DNA of 64,000 bases from an uncultured Litoreibacter sp. (GTDB lineage: Bacteria; Pseudomonadota; Alphaproteobacteria; Rhodobacterales; Rhodobacteraceae): the NCBI RefSeq assembly GCF_947501785.1, contig NZ_CANMXB010000001.1, positions 3,166,501-3,230,500 on the forward strand, read 5' to 3'. Each line of letters starts with the position of its first letter. Within the stretch, counting starts at the first letter, position 1. Below are positions 1 through 8,732 of this stretch, piece after piece. The notes under the pieces were generated by a model. That model saw only the letters and a program-made list of their open reading frames with translations, had not been told where the DNA came from and did no database searches. The position numbers were made by a program, and so were the translations under genes.

Positions 1-1227
1 GGGATCGCCGAAGAACCCTATAACGGGATGATCCAGAACTACGCCAGGAACGGGCTGACCAAGACGGGGCATCATGGCATCGTGGATTCCATGGGCGTAC
101 CGCGCGGCAAGCTGCCCGATTGGGACGATATCCAGCTGCTGACGGCGCAGCTGGCCAAGCCGCCGCTTCTCGATGATGATCCGGTCGGCACCGAGGTGGT
201 GATCGGCCCCAACGCGCAAAAGCCGCTGCGGCTGGAGATACCGCTTTTTGTGTCGGACATGAGCTTCGGCGCGCTGTCGGAAACCGCCAAGCTGGCCCTT
301 GCCATGGGTGCTGAGATGGCCGGCACCGGCATCTGTTCCGGCGAGGGCGGCATGCTACCCGAAGAGCAGGCCGCCAACTCGCGTTACTTCTACGAACTCG
401 CCTCCGCACGGTTCGGGTTCGATTGGGACAAGCTGGACCGGGTGCAGGCTTTCCATTTCAAAGGCGGGCAGGGGGCCAAGACCGGCACAGGCGGGCATCT
501 GCCCGGCAACAAGGTCAAAGGCAAGATCGCCGAGGTGCGCGGGCTGGACGAGGGCGCTGACGCCATCTCCCCTTCCCGATTCCCGGAATGGACCGAGGTT
601 AGCCAGATCAAGGAATTCGCCGACGAGGTGCGCAACCGCACCGGGGGTATTCCTATTGGCTACAAGTTGAGCGCCCAGCATATTGAGGCGGACATAGACG
701 CGGCTTTGGCGGTCGGGGTGGATTACATCATTCTCGACGGTCGCGGCGGCGGCACGGGGGCCGCGCCGATTATCTTCCGCGACAACATCTCGGTTCCGAC
801 CATCCCGGCCTTGGCCCGCGCGCGGCGGCACCTCGACATACTCGGGCGCGGCGATATCAGCCTCGTGATCACCGGCGGGCTGCGCAAACCGGCGGATTTC
901 ATCAAGGCCATGGCGCTGGGGGCGGATGCAATTGCGGTGTCCAACTCGGCGATGCAGGCCATTGGCTGCCTGGCCATGCGCGCCTGTCACACGAACAACT
1001 GCCCCGTGGGCATCGCCACCCAAAAGCCGGAACTGGTCAGCCGGCTGATCGCTGACAAGTCGGCGCAGCAGCTGGCCAATTTCTTCTCCGCCTCGACCGA
1101 GCTGATGCAGGTCATGGCGCGCGCCTGCGGGCATGACCATCTGTCGAAATTCAATCATGCCGACTTAACCACTTGGAAACGGGACATGGCCGATATCTCA
1201 GGGGTGTCCTTCGGAGGCGTCGCATGA
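1..1227 (+). CDS. FMN-binding glutamate synthase family protein (5' truncated)
   Basis: The reading frame is open from base 1, so the gene starts upstream of the window; an internal Met lies at base 28 and 408 residues are visible. The sequence matches the FMN-binding alpha-domain of glutamate synthase, with a GGGTGAAP loop and, at visible residues 323, 329 and 334, a C-x5-C-x4-C motif followed by PVGIATQ, the 3Fe-4S ligand pattern of that family. No amidotransferase domain is visible, so it should be a stand-alone flavin/iron-sulfur oxidoreductase whose substrate is unknown. Its stop overlaps the next start as ATGA, making it part of the operon that runs to base 5679. The family call is firm; real glutamate synthase activity is doubtful. 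Confidence 0.9.
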   Translation, partial: GIAEEPYNGMIQNYARNGLTKTGHHGIVDSMGVPRGKLPDWDDIQLLTAQLAKPPLLDDDPVGTEVVIGPNAQKPLRLEIPLFVSDMSFGALSETAKLALAMGAEMAGTGICSGEGGMLPEEQAANSRYFYELASARFGFDWDKLDRVQAFHFKGGQGAKTGTGGHLPGNKVKGKIAEVRGLDEGADAISPSRFPEWTEVSQIKEFADEVRNRTGGIPIGYKLSAQHIEADIDAALAVGVDYIILDGRGGGTGAAPIIFRDNISVPTIPALARARRHLDILGRGDISLVITGGLRKPADFIKAMALGADAIAVSNSAMQAIGCLAMRACHTNNCPVGIATQKPELVSRLIADKSAQQLANFFSASTELMQVMARACGHDHLSKFNHADLTTWKRDMADISGVSFGGVA

Positions 1228-1592
1228 ATGAGGCAGAGCTGATCCTGATGGTCGTCAAGATCTGGGGCGGCATCGGCGCGCTGGTCGCCGTTGCGTTTCT
1301 GACTTTCGGCATGGACCGGCTCGATGAGGACGCCCAAGGGGCCTACGTCTTCCGCCCGCTGATTGTGCCGGGCGTGCTGCTGATCTGGCCGCTGGTGCTG
1401 TGGCGCTGGTACATTCTGGCCGACGGCAAGGATGAGTGGTCCAAACGCTACCGCCCGCGAAGGCGCGCGCACCACATGGTGGCGCTGATCATGCCCATTG
1501 CGATTGTTTTGGTCATCGCCGCAGGGCTGGCCGTGCGCCAGACATGGCCAACGGACGTGGCCCCCGTTCAACTGTCGGAGCCCGCGCAATGA
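1224..1592 (+). CDS. Three-helix membrane protein of the redox operon
   Basis: This 122-residue protein has no family I recognise. The start is the ATG that overlaps the preceding TGA; an in-frame start further up would run deep into the upstream gene. Hydrophobic stretches at about residues 8-28, 45-65 and 85-105 suggest three membrane helices with a basic, Arg-rich loop (RYRPRRRAHH) between the second and third. Its own stop overlaps the next ATG. Given neighbours with iron-sulfur and probable haem centres, it may be a small subunit or anchor of a membrane oxidoreductase complex. That role is inferred from context only. Confidence 0.75.
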   Translation: MNEAELILMVVKIWGGIGALVAVAFLTFGMDRLDEDAQGAYVFRPLIVPGVLLIWPLVLWRWYILADGKDEWSKRYRPRRRAHHMVALIMPIAIVLVIAAGLAVRQTWPTDVAPVQLSEPAQ

Positions 1593-2662
1593 GCGTCAAA
1601 TACATCCCCGTCCAGTGGAACCGCAACAAATGGATCTACGACTTCGTCATGCTGGCGGGGGTGGTGGCGTTCCTTTGGCTGTTCCTCTTCGTCAGCCCGG
1701 AACTCCTGAGCCACGAATTCCCGATCAACCCGCAGGTCCACAACGCCCGCGCCTTCGGGGCCTGCGCCTTCGTCATGCTGACGGTGATCCTGTGCATCGG
1801 CCCACTGGCGCGCATCGACCGCCGCTTCCTGCCGCTGCTCTACAACCGCCGCCATTTCGGGGTGATGACCACCTTCGTGGCGATCACCCATGCGGGCTAC
1901 ATCCTGAACTGGTACTTCGCCTTCTCCAGCTCCGACAAATACGAGGCGCTGCTTTTTGCCAATACCAGCTTCTTCCAGCTCGCGGGCTTCCCGTTCGAGG
2001 TCTTCGGCATCTTCGCCCTGATCTGCCTGCTGGTCTTGGCTGCCACCAGCCACGATTTCTGGATGAAATTCCTGACCCCGCCGGTCTGGAAGCGCATCCA
2101 CGCGTCCATCTACTTCGCCTATGTCGCCGTGGTCGCCCATGTCAGTCTCGGCATCCTGCAGGACCAGCAGAACCACGTCTTCACCGTGATCTTCATTGGC
2201 GGGGCCGCCGCCGTGGCGGGGCTGCATGCCTACGCCGCGCTGATGGACCGCCGCGCGGGCGACGAGATCGGTGTTGACGCGGACGGCTGGATTGATGTGT
2301 GCGACGCGTCAGACATTCGCAACGGTTTCGCCAAGATCAAGGTGCTGCCCAACGACGAACGCGTCGCCGTGTTCAATCAGGAGGGCAAGCTGAACGCAAT
2401 CTCCAACGCCTGCGCGCACCAAAACGGCCCGCTGGGGGAAGGGCAGGTGGTCTTCTGCCTCGTCACCTGCCCGTGGCACGGGTTCCAATATGACGTCACC
2501 AACGGCCGCTCCCCCGCGCCGTTCACCGAGATGATCCCGACCTACAACCTGCGCCTTGAAGGCGGCACCGTGCAGGTGCACCGCGACGCCAACCCGCCGG
2601 GAACTTACGTCGAGCCGGTCCCGATCCCCGGTTGGCAACCCGCAGAGGAGGCCGCGACATGA
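1589..2662 (+). CDS. Ferric-reductase-like membrane protein fused to a Rieske [2Fe-2S] domain
   Basis: The 357-residue protein starts at the ATG overlapping the previous stop. Residues about 15-215 form five or six hydrophobic segments of ferric-reductase-like type, with His at 101, 155, 171 and 184 as possible haem b ligands. Residues about 230-340 are a Rieske domain: C275-x-H277 and C294-x2-H297 bind the [2Fe-2S] cluster, with NGPLGEG between them. The known family logic is electron passage between a soluble Rieske centre and membrane haem. No NAD- or FAD-binding domain is visible, so the partner must be another protein, plausibly one encoded in the same operon. Confidence 0.85.
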   Translation: MSVKYIPVQWNRNKWIYDFVMLAGVVAFLWLFLFVSPELLSHEFPINPQVHNARAFGACAFVMLTVILCIGPLARIDRRFLPLLYNRRHFGVMTTFVAITHAGYILNWYFAFSSSDKYEALLFANTSFFQLAGFPFEVFGIFALICLLVLAATSHDFWMKFLTPPVWKRIHASIYFAYVAVVAHVSLGILQDQQNHVFTVIFIGGAAAVAGLHAYAALMDRRAGDEIGVDADGWIDVCDASDIRNGFAKIKVLPNDERVAVFNQEGKLNAISNACAHQNGPLGEGQVVFCLVTCPWHGFQYDVTNGRSPAPFTEMIPTYNLRLEGGTVQVHRDANPPGTYVEPVPIPGWQPAEEAAT

Positions 2663-3423
2663 GCGAGAAAGACAAACCGTTCTTCGTGGGCTACCTCGCC
2701 GCGCCCGATGGGCTGCGCAAGTTCCTGCTTCTGGCCTGCGTCGCCGTGGTGGGCATCTTCGTGGCCACTGGGCTGCTGATTGGCAGCACGCAGGACGCGC
2801 CACCGGAATCGGGTTTTCGCTTCGACTATGGCCGCCAGACGGTCACCGGTGTTATTGAACTGACACCCTATCCCTTGCTCCGCGTGACCGAGGGCAACGA
2901 CCTGATCAAACCCGGTAAGACCCTGATGCTGACCAGCGCCGGGAAGGCCGGTGTCGACATGCGCGCCATGGGGCTGGAAGGGCAGTTGGCAGAGGTCTCC
3001 GGCATCATTTTGCAACGCGGCACCATCGACATGATGCAGCTGCGCGGCGGCCAGCAAGGGCTGAAAATGGTGGGCGGCGACCCGCCCCCGATGGACACCG
3101 AACCCTTGGGCCGCTGGAAGGTCGCGGGGGAGATTTGCGACGGCAAATGTCTCAACGGGGCGATGCGGCCGGGGCGCGGGCTGGCTCACAAGGCCTGCGC
3201 CAACCTGTGCCTGATTGGCGATGTGCCACCTGTTTTCGTGTCCACGCAGCCCATTGACGGGTCCGACTTCATGCTGATCACCGGCCCTGACGGCACGCGG
3301 CTTCCCGAGGCGGCGTATGATTATGTCGGGCAGTTCGTCTCGCTTGAAGGTGATCTTGAGCGGCGCGGCGACATTCTGGTCCTGTGCATGGACGACACAA
3401 CGATGGAGCTGATCTCCGAATGA
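2659..3423 (+). CDS. Membrane-anchored protein with paired CxxxC motifs
   Basis: The protein has 254 residues, starting at the ATG overlapping the preceding TGA. One hydrophobic helix (about residues 22-42) should anchor it, with the remaining 210 residues outside the membrane, probably periplasmic. Near residues 160-184 lie C160-x3-C164 and C180-x3-C184, separated by a Gly/Pro/His stretch (GAMRPGRGLAHK). Four such cysteines could bind a metal or form disulfides. I recall similar K-C-x2-G-x-M-x-P-G motifs in small membrane proteins near oxidoreductases, but can name no function. It sits between the two Rieske-containing genes, which suggests a redox or assembly role. Confidence 0.75.
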   Translation: MSEKDKPFFVGYLAAPDGLRKFLLLACVAVVGIFVATGLLIGSTQDAPPESGFRFDYGRQTVTGVIELTPYPLLRVTEGNDLIKPGKTLMLTSAGKAGVDMRAMGLEGQLAEVSGIILQRGTIDMMQLRGGQQGLKMVGGDPPPMDTEPLGRWKVAGEICDGKCLNGAMRPGRGLAHKACANLCLIGDVPPVFVSTQPIDGSDFMLITGPDGTRLPEAAYDYVGQFVSLEGDLERRGDILVLCMDDTTMELISE

Positions 3424-3707
3424 AACGCGTTGTCCTTTTGGTTCTAATGGCAGTGGTCGGCGCGGTGATGCTGTACCTGTCGCGCTTCTGGATATTTGAT
3501 CTCTGGGGCCGCCCCGGCCTGTTCGGCATTCAGGAGCTGCGCCCAAATGGCGGCCTTCTGGCCCGCTGGCTACGCGGCACGCCCTTCGCCCCGTTCGAGC
3601 TGCTGATCTGGGCCACCGGCGTGTTCCTGATCCTGACCTACCTGCAAAAATTCATTGATTTCCTGACCCAGCCCAACGCGCCAGAAGAGGAGACCACCGA
3701 TGACTGA
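3420..3707 (+). CDS. Small two-helix membrane protein
   Basis: This 95-residue protein starts at an ATG overlapping the preceding stop (ATGA) and overlaps the next gene by 8 bases. Hydrophobic segments at about residues 4-22 and 60-80 give two membrane helices; the C-terminal tail is acidic (APEEETTDD). No family was recognised. Tight coupling on both sides and co-directional redox genes make it a likely subunit of the same membrane complex, but nothing in the sequence shows a cofactor site. Confidence 0.7.
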   Translation: MKRVVLLVLMAVVGAVMLYLSRFWIFDLWGRPGLFGIQELRPNGGLLARWLRGTPFAPFELLIWATGVFLILTYLQKFIDFLTQPNAPEEETTDD

Positions 3708-5679
3708 CCAGACGCTCGACTGGATATCTGTAGGCCATATCGACGACCTGCCCGAGGGCCGGGTCAAAACCGTGACCGCGCGCACCACATCCATCTGCCT
3801 GGTGCATTTCGACGGTCAATGGGCCGCGATGAACAACCACTGCCCGCACCAAAAGGGCCCGCTGGGCGAGGGCTCGATCGAGAAGGGCATCGACGACAAA
3901 TGCTGGATCCGCTGCCCATGGCACGGCTGGGATTTCGACCCGCTGACCGGCAAGCCGCCCGGCGGGCACGAGGATACCGGCCAGGACATGTACCCGCTCG
4001 ACATTCGCGACGGGGAGATTTTCGTGGGGCTGGAAGCCGAGCCGCCGCATGAGCGCACCGTCACCGACGTCATGGTCGAAACCATGACCAACTGGGGCGT
4101 GCAATCGGTGTTCGGCATGGTCGGCCACTCCAACCTTGGCCTCTCAGACGCGATCCGGCGGCAGGTGATCGACAAAAAGCTGAAATACTACGGCATCCGC
4201 CACGAAGGCGTCGCGGCCTTCGCGGCTTCGGCCTACGGCAAGCTGACCGGCAAGCCCGCGGCCTGCCTGACCATCGCGGGGCCGGGGGCCACCAATCTGA
4301 TGACCGGCATGTGGGACGCCAAGGTCGACCGCGCGCCGGTGCTGGCGCTGACCGGTCAGGTGCAGACGCAGGTCTTCGGGCCGGGCGCGTTTCAGGACAT
4401 TGACCTCAGCTCCGCCTTTCAGGCGGTGTCGGCCTTCTCGCAAACCGTGCTCAGCAGCTCCAACCATGCAGAGCTGATGTCGCTGGCCTGCAAAAACGCC
4501 ATCGTTGAACAGAATGTGGCGCATCTGATCTTTCCCGATGACATGCAGACGATCCCGTCCGACAAGCCCGCCGCCACGCCGGAGGGCCGCATGGGCGGCA
4601 CCCGCGTCACGCCCTCCAAGGACGACATTGACGCGGCCGCCGCGCTGCTCAATTCAGCCAAACGCCCGATGTTCGTCGTGGGCCACGGCGCTTACGGCGC
4701 GCGCGACCAGATCATCGCGCTTGCCGAAAAGATCGGCGCGCCAGTCGTGACCACCTTCAAGGCCAAGGGCCTGATCGCCGATGACCACCCGCTTGGCGGC
4801 GGGGTCTTAGGCCGGTCCGGCACGCCGATTGCCAGCTGGTTCATGAACGAGGCGGATGTACTGGTGGCCTTCGGGGCCAGCTTCTCCAACCACACGGGTA
4901 TCGCGCTGAAGGAAAACATCATTCAGGTCGATTACGACCGGATGCAGCTGGGCAAGTTCCATCCCGTGAAGGTCCCCGTCTGGGGCGAGATTGGCGCGTT
5001 TTGTGACGCGGCTGCAGGCCGGATCAAACCGCATCAGGACGCCGACGATCAGGTCGCGGAAATGGCCGACCGCTGGGCCATCTGGCGCGATGAAAAACAC
5101 CGCCGTCTGGCCGAAGAGCATGGCAAAGGCATCCATTCCTTCGCCATCTTCGATGCGCTGGGCAAGCTGGTCCCCGATGACACGATCTTCGCCGTCGACG
5201 TGGGCAACAACACCTATTCCTTCGGGCGCTATCTGGAAACCAAGGGCAATCAGCGGGTGCTGATGTCGGGCTATCTGGGTTCCATCGGTTTCGGCTTCCC
5301 CGCGGGTCTCGGCGCGTGGGCCGCGACGCAGGATGTGGCGGAACTCAAAGGGCGCAAGGTCGTCTCCATCTCCGGCGACGGCGGATTCGGGCAGTACCCG
5401 ATGGATTTCACCACGGCCGTCAAATACGGCATGGATGTCACCGATATCCTGTTGCACAACGGTGAGCTGGGCAAAATCTCGAAGGAGCAACGCTCCGGCG
5501 AATGGCCCGTTTGGGAAACCGACCTGATCAACCCGTCCTTCGCGGCCTTTGCCAAACTGTGCGGCGGCCATGGGCAGAAGGTCACCAAGACCGAGGACAT
5601 TGCCGACGCGATCACCAAGGCGCTCGCCGTCAACGGCCCCGCGCTGGTCGAGATCATGACGGATGCAGAGCTGGTCTAA
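3700..5679 (+). CDS. Rieske-domain / thiamine-pyrophosphate enzyme fusion
   Basis: The protein has 659 residues. Residues 1-115 are a Rieske domain (C48-P-H50, C72-P-W-H75). Residues about 120-655 are a thiamine-pyrophosphate enzyme of the acetolactate synthase/pyruvate oxidase fold: E169 in RHEGVAAFAASAYG matches the cofactor-activating glutamate, and G559-D560-G561 with N587 forms the GDG...N metal-diphosphate motif. Such enzymes cleave 2-keto acids or related C-C bonds. The fused cluster suggests that electrons from the TPP intermediate pass to a Rieske centre instead of, or as well as, a flavin. The substrate is unknown. It is the last gene of the operon; the next gene is convergent. Confidence 0.88.
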   Translation: MTDQTLDWISVGHIDDLPEGRVKTVTARTTSICLVHFDGQWAAMNNHCPHQKGPLGEGSIEKGIDDKCWIRCPWHGWDFDPLTGKPPGGHEDTGQDMYPLDIRDGEIFVGLEAEPPHERTVTDVMVETMTNWGVQSVFGMVGHSNLGLSDAIRRQVIDKKLKYYGIRHEGVAAFAASAYGKLTGKPAACLTIAGPGATNLMTGMWDAKVDRAPVLALTGQVQTQVFGPGAFQDIDLSSAFQAVSAFSQTVLSSSNHAELMSLACKNAIVEQNVAHLIFPDDMQTIPSDKPAATPEGRMGGTRVTPSKDDIDAAAALLNSAKRPMFVVGHGAYGARDQIIALAEKIGAPVVTTFKAKGLIADDHPLGGGVLGRSGTPIASWFMNEADVLVAFGASFSNHTGIALKENIIQVDYDRMQLGKFHPVKVPVWGEIGAFCDAAAGRIKPHQDADDQVAEMADRWAIWRDEKHRRLAEEHGKGIHSFAIFDALGKLVPDDTIFAVDVGNNTYSFGRYLETKGNQRVLMSGYLGSIGFGFPAGLGAWAATQDVAELKGRKVVSISGDGGFGQYPMDFTTAVKYGMDVTDILLHNGELGKISKEQRSGEWPVWETDLINPSFAAFAKLCGGHGQKVTKTEDIADAITKALAVNGPALVEIMTDAELV

Positions 5680-5682
5680 GCC

Positions 5683-7521
5683 TTAGCCGATCCCGCACGC
5701 CTTAAGGTCGGCTTCGGGCAGGTGGTCCTTCAGCTCCAGCGCGAGGTCTTTCAGAAGAGGGCCGTATCGCTGCCACCGGGCAACGGAGCTACTGTAAATC
5801 GGCTCCCGCACCTGCGATACAGAGGCGGTGTTGACCTGCCGCGTTGATTTCACGTGGTCCAGCACATCGCTGTCCCAAGGCAGCCCAACAAAGTCTAGGG
5901 CGCTCCGCATCTGCCCTTCCGCGTCGGTGACAATGTCCTCGTAGCGCAGTTCACGCACCTGATCTGGCAGCAGCGATGCCCAGTTCGTGGCGATCTGGTC
6001 GAACTCCTTGTACGTGCTGGCCAGGTACTCGATGCGGGTGGAAAACGGCTGGTTTTGCCCGAAATTCTGCGTGAAGTTCGACAACAGGCAGTCCAGCGGG
6101 TGGCGCCGCATGATCAGGAATTTCGACCTTGGGAACGCCAGTGCCAGCAGGCCGATATAGATGTAGTTGCTCGGCATTTTGTCCGTGACAAATTCCGTTT
6201 TCAGCCCTTCGCGTTGCACAAAGGATATGTAGCCCTCGGCCAGCCGGTTCAGGTCGTCATCGGTCATGGCGCTGTCGGGGGCCTCTTGCTCCATGATGTC
6301 GCGGACCGGTTTGTTCATCCGAAAGGCATAGGGAACGGCGGCCATTTCGCCGCCCGCCTGCACCTGCGGGTGGCGGGAAAACATCTGCTCCGTCAGCGTG
6401 GTGCCGGACCGGGGCAGGCCGCAGATGAAGATCGGGGCGAGGTCGCTGATCCCCGCGCCACGGTGCTTGGCAATGAAGTCCGGGGTGGCAAGGCTGCGCA
6501 TGCGCGACGTGCGCGCCGCCAATGCGCTGATGTCGAAAGGGTAGGACTCCGCGGCCAGCTCGTTGGCCCGGCTGAAATAGCCAAAGGCGTCATCATATTT
6601 GCCAAGATCTTCTGATGCCTTGCCCAGCGCGAAGAGCAGGCTGGCTTGGATTTCGGCGTTCTGGATATTGTCGAACTGTTCCTCATAGCGCTTTAGAAGC
6701 GCGTGTTCCGGGCTGTCGGCCTTGGTTTTTCGCATGTACACCAAGCGGGTCAAGGCGGCCATCCCGATGGGCGGTTGGCCGGCGATCTTCAGATAGGCTT
6801 CGGCCGCCTCGTCCATGCGGCCAGAGGCGGCGAGCGTCATGCCAAGGTTCAACCACGCCTCTGCGGCGTTTGGCGCCAGTTCAATCGCGCGGCGGGCGTG
6901 GTGTTCCGCCGCCTCATGGCGTTCCCGTCGAAACAGCGCCAGCGACAGGTTGACATGCGCGGCTGCAGATTGCGGGTCGATGGCCAGAACGCGGAACAGC
7001 GCGTTGATCGCGGCGTCAAACCTGTTGGTGCGAATGAAGGCCTGCGCAAGATTGAGATGCGCGTCCAACACGGTGCCGTCCAGCTCGATGGCCTTTTCAA
7101 GGTTGGGGATGGCGCGCTCATATTGCTTTTCCACCACCTGCGCGGCGCCCAGATTGGCGCGGGCAAGCGCGTAGTTGGGCGATATCTCGACGGCCATTTG
7201 GAATTGCTGAATGGCTTTGTCCACCTCGCCATCATTGGCCAGCATGCCGCCATAGTCGATCAGCACCCCGACATCGGACATGTCATAGGCCAAAACAGAT
7301 TCCAGCAGCGCCCGTCCCGCGGCGCGGTCGCCGGCCAGGGATTTGTTCAGCCCCTTGAGGTGGATCAGCCGGGGGTGGTCTTCATATTGCGCCAGCAGGC
7401 CGTCGATTGCTTCGCCCGCCTCGTCGACCCGGCCTGCCTGCTGGTGCTGAATGATGCGTTGCACCTGCTCGTTGACGGCGGCGAGTTCGGTGGGGTCGTC
7501 TGGCGTGGCAGTGGCGCTCAT
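5683..7521 (-). CDS. TPR-repeat sulfotransferase family protein
   Basis: The protein has 612 residues. Residues about 15-330 are a run of tetratricopeptide repeats, with helix pairs such as LNLGMTLAASGRMDEAAEAY. The C-terminal 245 residues form a sulfotransferase domain: GLPRSGTT at 368-375 is the P-loop-like 5'-phosphosulfate motif that binds PAPS. No signal peptide is visible, so action in the cytoplasm is expected. The acceptor is unknown; the TPR part probably recruits a protein or glycan partner. It ends 4 bases from the convergent redox operon and is followed by other secretory or glycan-type genes. Confidence 0.87.
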   Translation of the reverse strand: MSATATPDDPTELAAVNEQVQRIIQHQQAGRVDEAGEAIDGLLAQYEDHPRLIHLKGLNKSLAGDRAAGRALLESVLAYDMSDVGVLIDYGGMLANDGEVDKAIQQFQMAVEISPNYALARANLGAAQVVEKQYERAIPNLEKAIELDGTVLDAHLNLAQAFIRTNRFDAAINALFRVLAIDPQSAAAHVNLSLALFRRERHEAAEHHARRAIELAPNAAEAWLNLGMTLAASGRMDEAAEAYLKIAGQPPIGMAALTRLVYMRKTKADSPEHALLKRYEEQFDNIQNAEIQASLLFALGKASEDLGKYDDAFGYFSRANELAAESYPFDISALAARTSRMRSLATPDFIAKHRGAGISDLAPIFICGLPRSGTTLTEQMFSRHPQVQAGGEMAAVPYAFRMNKPVRDIMEQEAPDSAMTDDDLNRLAEGYISFVQREGLKTEFVTDKMPSNYIYIGLLALAFPRSKFLIMRRHPLDCLLSNFTQNFGQNQPFSTRIEYLASTYKEFDQIATNWASLLPDQVRELRYEDIVTDAEGQMRSALDFVGLPWDSDVLDHVKSTRQVNTASVSQVREPIYSSSVARWQRYGPLLKDLALELKDHLPEADLKACGIG

Positions 7522-7694: not shown

Positions 7695-8732
7695 CTACGC
7701 GGCGCGAACGGCACGTGGTGCTTCAATCCCCAGCGCGTCCGCGCGGGCCTCAAGGGCTGCGGCAAGCGGCTGCGGCACCATGCGTTTGGCGGCAATGCGC
7801 GGCAGGGCCATCTCGGGGATAATCGGCGCGTCGGCGCGTTCGTCACCGTTGACGAAGTTCTCACGTCCAACCGCGTCCAGGTAGCTTTCAGAGGGGCAAT
7901 TTTCGGCCATGATCACCTCATGGGCCCCGGTGTCGATGTGGTAGTAGGTGAAGCCGTCCAGCGGCATGTTGCGCGCCTGGAAGATGGAGCGGCCGTTGAC
8001 CAGCGCATGCGCGTTGAAAAGCAGCCCGTCGATTTCGATGGCGTGGTCTGGCGACACGAACAGGTCGCGGGCCGGTACGTTGTCGGCAATGGCGCCTTTG
8101 ACCAGGCAGATCGGGTTGACCTTGCTTGGGGTGGCCTTGCGGGTATCAACCGGCTGGATGCCGACCCATTTGACCTCGGTCGTGCCGCCATCTGCGGTCA
8201 TGATGACATCGCCCGGTTGCAGGTCCTCAACGGCCACGTCGCCATCCGGCGTGGCGATGCCTGTGCCTTCAAGGTAGCAGGTGATTTCTGCAGTAAGGCT
8301 GTCGATCGCGATGAACTGGCCGGCGCCAGTCGGTGTAAACCGAATTTCGGAGTAATTCGACCCGGCGGTGCCGGTGAAATTAAGTACCTGGCCTGTGGTC
8401 GAGGCCGACAGGACCACATTTGCGGCGCCGTCCGCGCCAACCAAAGTCACATTCCAGGTGCCGGAAATAGTGTCGATCGCGACCTGAAGGTTACCGCCAG
8501 CCGTCTGGGCAAAGTTGGTATTGGCGGGTCCGGCCGCCACATCCAACGTGAAGACATCCAACCCCGCGTTATCTGAGAAAGTCAGCTCGCCAACCTGAGG
8601 CGCATAGCTAATATTGTTGCTACCACCGACACCGCTGGTGCTGGCGACAAATGTAACGGTATTGTCTGTGAAGGTAAGGCTGGTCGAATTGCTTGTGACC
8701 CCAGTCCCGGTGTCAAAATCAAATAGTGGCAT
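7695..8732 (-). CDS. Hint-domain (hedgehog/intein-like) protein
   Basis: The protein has 345 residues. Residues 1-150 are Gly-, Thr- and Ser-rich beta-type sequence without a classical signal peptide. From C152 the sequence reads CYLEGTGIATPDGDVAVEDL, followed by PGDVIMT and later SPDHAIEIDGLLFNAHALV: these are Hint blocks A and B, of the Hint_2 type common in Roseobacters. In the wider family the first Cys attacks the preceding peptide bond and cuts the protein in two, so self-cleavage before C152 is plausible. A C-terminal Hedgehog cholesterol module is absent. No RTX repeats are seen. It is followed by a hairpin terminator, so it is probably monocistronic. Confidence 0.85.
   Translation of the reverse strand: MPLFDFDTGTGVTSNSTSLTFTDNTVTFVASTSGVGGSNNISYAPQVGELTFSDNAGLDVFTLDVAAGPANTNFAQTAGGNLQVAIDTISGTWNVTLVGADGAANVVLSASTTGQVLNFTGTAGSNYSEIRFTPTGAGQFIAIDSLTAEITCYLEGTGIATPDGDVAVEDLQPGDVIMTADGGTTEVKWVGIQPVDTRKATPSKVNPICLVKGAIADNVPARDLFVSPDHAIEIDGLLFNAHALVNGRSIFQARNMPLDGFTYYHIDTGAHEVIMAENCPSESYLDAVGRENFVNGDERADAPIIPEMALPRIAAKRMVPQPLAAALEARADALGIEAPRAVRAA

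Follow-up and report, generated by a model that had tools for sequence, protein, structure and literature searches.

The first 5679 bases of a 64,000-nucleotide stretch of an uncultured Litoreibacter genome (Rhodobacterales; G000:C1:3166501-3230500, hereafter the window, whose first base is position 1 in the coordinates below) hold a six-gene redox operon, A to F, that is not a chance assembly, because the order A, C module, F recurs in 19 of 80 fetched loci. Protein F joins a Rieske domain to a thiamine pyrophosphate (TPP) enzyme, protein A joins one to a glutamate-synthase-like flavin mononucleotide (FMN) domain, and the genes between them encode a membrane module built around the haem-Rieske protein C. 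We propose, with a probability of roughly 45%, that these proteins form a modular accessory stress-linked relay, in which F would oxidise pyruvate and pass electrons through the Rieske domains to A, to C together with a periplasmic protein D, or to both. The parts belong to known families, and the combination and its two fusions (Rieske-TPP and Rieske-glutamate-synthase) look undescribed within the literature searched. Among the openly licensed papers that these searches listed, none describes the fusions or the operon by its title and the opening part of its abstract, which is not proof of absence.

Operon layout

The six genes lie on the forward strand with successive overlaps of 4, 4, 4, 4 and 8 bases, as read from the sequence. 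This confirms the overlaps of 4-8 bases given in the preliminary description, whose inventory (an FMN/3Fe-4S protein, a haem-Rieske membrane protein, three further membrane proteins and a Rieske-TPP fusion) also holds by Pfam and hydropathy. Its count of two Rieske domains has to be raised to three, because the window begins inside gene A. The part inside the window (1..1227, +) is the 3' portion of a gene spanning G000:C1:3166117-3167727, which starts 384 bases before position 1, and the missing 5' portion encodes a Rieske domain, so that such domains occur in three of the six proteins (A, C and F). The idea of a Rieske-linked chain, already put forward in that description, is supported as well.

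The Rieske-TPP protein F

Gene F (3700..5679, +) encodes a 659-residue protein with an N-terminal Rieske domain (3721..3957, +; Pfam, 62.1 bits) followed by a complete pyruvate-oxidase-like TPP enzyme (4057..5655, +), in which Pfam recognises all three domains, TPP_enzyme_N, _M and _C. Conservation of cofactor sites was assessed in alignments restricted to homologues passing a coverage filter (64 sequences for A, 52 for C, 87 for F and 50 for D). The Rieske ligands C48, H50, C72 and H75 and the TPP-activating glutamate E169 are invariant in all 87 sequences of F. The best NCBIfam model is the pyruvate oxidase PRK08611, with a score of 389.9 bits that is about half its cut-off of 742, and PRK09124 gave 312.9 bits, below its cut-off of 792. 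Escherichia coli PoxB provided the best solved chains, aligned over residues 3-528 of 572. This alignment stops at residue 655 of the 659 of F and leaves four F residues, the membrane-binding C-terminal tail of PoxB being absent. F therefore resembles PoxB and POX in its three TPP-enzyme domains, its TPP glutamate and its best model, and differs from them by the N-terminal Rieske domain, the missing tail and scores below the equivalog cut-offs.

The electrons released when TPP enzymes oxidise 2-oxo acids are known to leave through lipoamide, through 4Fe-4S clusters or ferredoxin, or through flavin adenine dinucleotide (FAD) to quinone or to oxygen. Since F is nearest to pyruvate oxidases and PoxB, yet carries a Rieske domain instead of the tail, the simplest reading is that its electrons would exit via the Rieske cluster. 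F would thus catalyse the oxidative decarboxylation of pyruvate or a close 2-oxo acid, with electrons leaving the TPP adduct through the fused cluster and not to quinone, as in PoxB, or to oxygen, as in POX. Sulfonate and acetolactate chemistry were rejected for F, because the corresponding models score well below pyruvate oxidase (217.8 and 238.7 bits for two sulfoacetaldehyde acetyltransferase models, 190-274 bits for acetolactate synthase and other non-redox-type relatives).

The Rieske-glutamate-synthase protein A

The complete protein A has 536 residues, no membrane segment, and a Rieske domain followed by an FMN/3Fe-4S glutamate-synthase-like domain (Glu_synthase, PF01645, 298.7 bits). 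Invariant in all 64 aligned sequences are the Rieske ligands C43, H45, C62 and H65 and the three cysteines C451, C457 and C462 (codons within 967..1002, +), which align to glutamate synthase and presumably form its 3Fe-4S site. Among solved chains, the large subunits of glutamate synthases come closest, with alignment to GltS residues 867-1152 of 7mfm_G. Of five presumed 2-oxoglutarate-site residues, four are kept (E243, Q285, K288 and R308) and the fifth is an invariant histidine, H294, not a glutamine. The protein consists of the Rieske and Glu_synthase domains only, without a glutaminase (amidotransferase) domain, a point for which the Halorarius copy was looked at too. It thus shares with GltB/GltS the FMN/3Fe-4S synthase domain and the three cluster cysteines, and differs by the lack of the glutaminase domain and of a co-encoded beta subunit and by its own Rieske domain. 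As a soluble partner of F, A may take electrons for a glutamate-synthase-like reduction.

A second form of A bears on the role of its Rieske domain. In a Vibrio plasmid protein and in the loci L027 (genome G102) and L092, the FMN part of A (about 68-72% identity) follows two CDGSH motifs instead of a Rieske domain, an assignment based on zf-CDGSH matches for the Vibrio copy and L092 and on sequence for L027. This form stands directly before F in L027 and L092. A tandem CDGSH fused to a glutamate synthase FMN domain corresponds to the type 5 CISD, for which the available part of the source gives no function (PMC3174974). Type 5 CISD and A thus have the FMN part in common and the CDGSH form can stand beside F, the difference being that A here carries a Rieske domain and not a tandem CDGSH. 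Such an interchange of 2Fe-2S domains suggests electron transfer.

The membrane module B-C-D-E

Protein C (1589..2662, +; 357 residues) combines a ferric-reductase/YedZ-type haem membrane domain (Ferric_reduct, 42.6 bits) with a C-terminal Rieske domain (2288..2512, +; Pfam, 56.0 bits). Its Rieske ligands C275, H277, C294 and H297, as well as five histidines, are invariant in all 52 aligned sequences. The first canonical haem histidine has given way to an arginine (R87 or R88, 13-14 residues before H101); this replacement is the signature of YedZ/STEAP proteins, according to a study of ferric reductase domain (FRD) proteins, whose model M4 also includes a Rieske module (PMC3591440). C scored 38.9 bits against the MsrQ equivalog model, below its cut-off of 130, and no msrP was found among the six genes of the operon. 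Hence the likeness of C to MsrQ/YedZ lies in the Ferric_reduct domain and the arginine, an FRD model with a Rieske module also being published, and the difference in the lack of msrP in its operon, a partner, D, of no known family and the score below cut-off.

Protein D (2659..3423, +; 254 residues) has a single predicted N-terminal membrane anchor and matched no Pfam or NCBIfam family above cut-off; its AlphaFold model has a mean predicted local distance difference test (pLDDT) value of 77.8. A motif E-x-C-D-x-K-C...H-x2-C-x3-C is kept in the 50 aligned sequences, with C160 in at least 97% of them and the other positions invariant. Positive charge is heavier before the anchor than after it, and therefore the Cys/His motif is probably periplasmic. 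We suppose that C would move electrons across the membrane to D, as MsrQ does to MsrP. The remaining two genes encode small membrane proteins without Pfam or NCBIfam match, for which a simple hydropathy script predicted three segments in B (1224..1592, +; 122 residues, with homologues in the module) and two in E (3420..3707, +; 95 residues). A short-chain dehydrogenase gene may belong to the module too, because it lies directly before B-C-D in five roseobacter-type loci (L044-L047 and L049) and on three Rhizobium plasmids (L150-L152).

Distribution and linkage of A, C and F

A pattern scan of a genome collection that represents each of 84,980 species once gave 120 relatives of F, the best 80 of which, including some near-duplicates, were used for locus counts. 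A was found in 55 of these loci and C in 34; among the 65 with at least 4.5 kilobases (kb) upstream of F, 48 had A, 34 had C and seven had neither. In 34 of the 80, A ends at most 150 bases upstream of F. The C module precedes A-F in four loci (L043, L044, L045 and L049), and in L104 A-B-C-D lies on the opposite strand, running away from F. The conserved unit is thus smaller and more mobile than six genes: its core is A and F, and B-C-D-E stands between them, before them, elsewhere, or is not seen.

Within the order, full-length F occurs in 26 of 292 genomes, with matches to the TPP domains only in eight more. Full-length Rieske-A is present in 30 of the 292; 17 others match from about residue 131 on only, of which the one inspected (G102) is the CDGSH form, and there is one partial match. 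Rieske-A accompanies F in 23 of the 26 genomes, G102 having the CDGSH form beside F instead. Of 244 genomes, 28 have C; F is also present in 22 of these 28, and C is distant from it in at least four of the 22 (G059, G112, G169 and G230). There are also genomes with A and C and no F (G075 and G154), with C and F and no A (G221 and G239), and with C and neither of the others. F is rare in a wider sample of Pseudomonadota (5 of 398 genomes, four of them from the family of the window, including its own genome), and in the phylum of one cyanobacterium it was found in one of 194 genomes, the one on which the search was centred. A single IMG/VR scan with short exact peptide patterns for F gave no viral match.

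Outside the order, F was found at 51-60% identity on four haloarchaeal plasmids and one Mycobacteroides plasmid, and at 60-62% in assemblies titled Cyanobacteria, Acanthopleuribacter, Myxococcota, Phycisphaerales, Longimicrobiales and Caldithrix. A was searched for in 18 records, namely eight distant bacterial genomes, five alphaproteobacterial genomes chosen because A was not beside F, and the five plasmids. Full-length A (61-82% identity) was recovered in eight: four of the distant bacteria, titled as other phyla (G666-G669), one of the five alphaproteobacteria (G671), and three of the five plasmids, all haloarchaeal (three of the four haloarchaeal plasmids). Within a stretch of 8 kb, the Halorarius plasmid carries F and A together with genes for a Na+/H+ antiporter and a K+ channel. 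In cyanobacteria and on the Mycobacteroides plasmid, an FMN_red-type protein stands beside or near F (L107, L111, L112 and L117; 58-59% identical between cyanobacteria and Mycobacteroides); since the three cyanobacteria searched for A gave no match above the level of glutamate synthases, a flavin partner of F recurs, though it is not always the same one. The records of the plasmids examined name the fusions only 'thiamine pyrophosphate-binding protein' and 'glutamate synthase-related protein'.

The preliminary description had asked whether the genes are conserved together elsewhere, and the 19 loci with A, the C module and F in this order show that they are. Its treatment of the six genes as one unit gives way to an A+F core with a separable B-C-D-E module, and its restriction to Rhodobacterales to a range that includes other phyla and archaeal plasmids.

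A candidate stress-linked regulon in some carriers

The 83 loci examined include many short ones; 30 contain a cation/proton antiporter homologue (the L070 copy is a Na_H_Exchanger), and a weakly TrkH-like gene adjoins some other loci. Eight of the 30 antiporter loci hold a match to an extracytoplasmic function (ECF) sigma factor, confirmed by Pfam for L070; the one anti-sigma gene tested, in L201, is a zf-HC2 protein. The motif TGTAAC-N16-GCATC precedes the antiporter in eight of the 28 usable upstream regions (L035 and L055 run off the contig). Seven of the eight motif loci hold an ECF match and seven of the eight ECF loci hold the motif, the exceptions being L074 and L069. Because the motif was first spotted by eye and the set used for counting overlaps with the regions in which it was spotted, the shuffle expectation of 0.006 is biased, and not all loci are independent (L070 and L071 are near-duplicates, L085 and L088 are alike). 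In 30 upstream regions, none of five ECF promoter patterns known from other systems was clearly above chance.

The same motif lies 171 bases before a malic enzyme gene in G338. In G872 and in L070 it stands in the region that separates a poxB-like gene from a divergent mlaE gene, and in L070 a malic-enzyme gene follows the poxB-like one. The best hint at pyruvate as the substrate of F is that a pyruvate-forming and a pyruvate-oxidising gene share this candidate promoter element.

The membrane module also occurs apart from F. C and D were found on five Rhizobium plasmids, none of which has a match to F at 1e-100. In the three islands looked at, Dsb, peroxiredoxin-like, glutathione-transferase or haloacid-dehalogenase genes lie near BCD(E), and in two of the three there is in addition an ECF sigma gene accompanied by NrsF or DUF1109 genes. 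Resistance to hypochlorous acid in Brucella, and an msrPQ-like operon there, are under the control of an ECF/DUF1109 pair (PMC8315932). The system is probably stress-linked.

The proposed relay and its alternatives

Several lines of evidence argue for the relay: the invariant Rieske ligands of A, C and F, the YedZ/MsrQ-like arginine of C, the co-occurrence of A and F in genomes of the order and on haloarchaeal plasmids, the presence of F in most genomes with C even where C is distant, the motif of the ECF loci before antiporter, malic-enzyme or poxB-like genes, and the Rhizobium islands. A network seems to fit better than a fixed linear chain, because C and F occur without A, A and C without F, and A and F without C in the locus (31 loci).

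Other observations weigh against this relay. Of the 55 A-bearing loci, 31 showed no C, though it may lie elsewhere in those genomes. Seven genomes of the order have A without F, and among the 26 genomes with F two (G221 and G239) gave no match to A; in three cyanobacteria the search for A gave only matches at the level of glutamate synthases (31-32%). FAD in F is only putative, though the central domain aligns with that of PoxB, and typical Rieske potentials may be too high to drive the FMN of a glutamate synthase. The motif is only modestly enriched genome-wide, with 16 matches against 5 control matches in seven genomes (G338 and G869-G874) and 22 against 20 in ten. Of the 15 inspected among the 16 (all but the one in L242), six lie before the antiporter, one before the malic enzyme gene and two in the interval from mlaE to a poxB-like gene. 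A further one is 462 bases ahead of a DUF6789 gene, and the last five overlap or abut other reading frames or have no convincing gene after them. The operon of the window has no antiporter, ECF gene or motif beside it, and neither of the two motif matches in its genome is near it.

A different arrangement, in which A would oxidise an amino acid or amine and F a 2-oxo acid, both feeding C and from there quinone or a periplasmic acceptor, appears unlikely. It would account for the Rieske domains on all three proteins and for the genomes in which A or F is paired with C alone, and is opposed by the A loci in which no C was seen and by the Myxococcota, Acidobacteriota and haloarchaeal carriers, in which A and F stay together on a single genome or plasmid (carriers for which no search for C was made). 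Still less probable is a structural or redox-sensing role of the Rieske domain of F, in which case F would work non-oxidatively, as a decarboxylase or carboligase, and A would be a separate enzyme. Some of the relatives of F scoring 190-274 bits are indeed non-redox, and in acetolactate synthase and some others FAD is only structural, a precedent set against the ligands invariant in 87 of 87 sequences, the Rieske domains of two partner proteins and the exchange of that of A for two CDGSH domains. A catabolic pathway in which F attacks an unspecified 2-keto acid or a sulfonate, substrates considered in the preliminary description, and energy is conserved along the chain, is permitted by the domain content and is very improbable, as the sulfoacetaldehyde acetyltransferase models stay well below pyruvate oxidase and the neighbour genes that recur are the antiporter and the ECF sigma/anti-sigma pair, no uptake or degradation gene recurring beside the A-F pair across lineages in the clusters examined.

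A bolder extension of the relay, which we regard as somewhat doubtful, is that the fused Rieske cluster constitutes a further exit for TPP-bound electrons, directly powering, without reduced nicotinamide adenine dinucleotide phosphate (NADPH), a flavoenzyme of the glutamate-synthase kind as well as a transmembrane haem exporter, in a stress system common to bacteria and haloarchaea and under ECF control in some carriers. If true, pyruvate-oxidase-type chemistry would gain a new electron exit, the fusions with generic record names would acquire a meaning, and marine bacteria and halophiles would have a carbon-fed, NADPH-independent line of reducing power into the cytosol and perhaps the periplasm. 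The partners are well enough defined, as is a candidate promoter in some carriers, for the system to be tested directly in strains that can be cultured.

Genes flanking the operon

Twelve loci (L069-L072, L074, L078, L085, L087, L088, L059, L101 and L197) have, downstream of F or near A, a gene for a 280-residue protein that matches neither Pfam nor NCBIfam, in Longimicrobiales and Myxococcota assemblies too. Upstream of A (L002:5022-9229), a phage-type integrase with three integrase Pfam domains is accompanied by small genes of no family or with DUF5681; this region occupies the place of the antiporter in relatives such as L036, and no transfer RNA gene was found in L002. Inside a small reading frame of this island, a CGATAC-type hexamer forms a perfect tandem repeat of about 12 copies (L002:6883-6950). 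On the other side of the operon, a TPR-sulfotransferase gene (5683..7521, -) is convergent with F and is followed by a gene for a Hint_2-domain protein (7695..8732, -).

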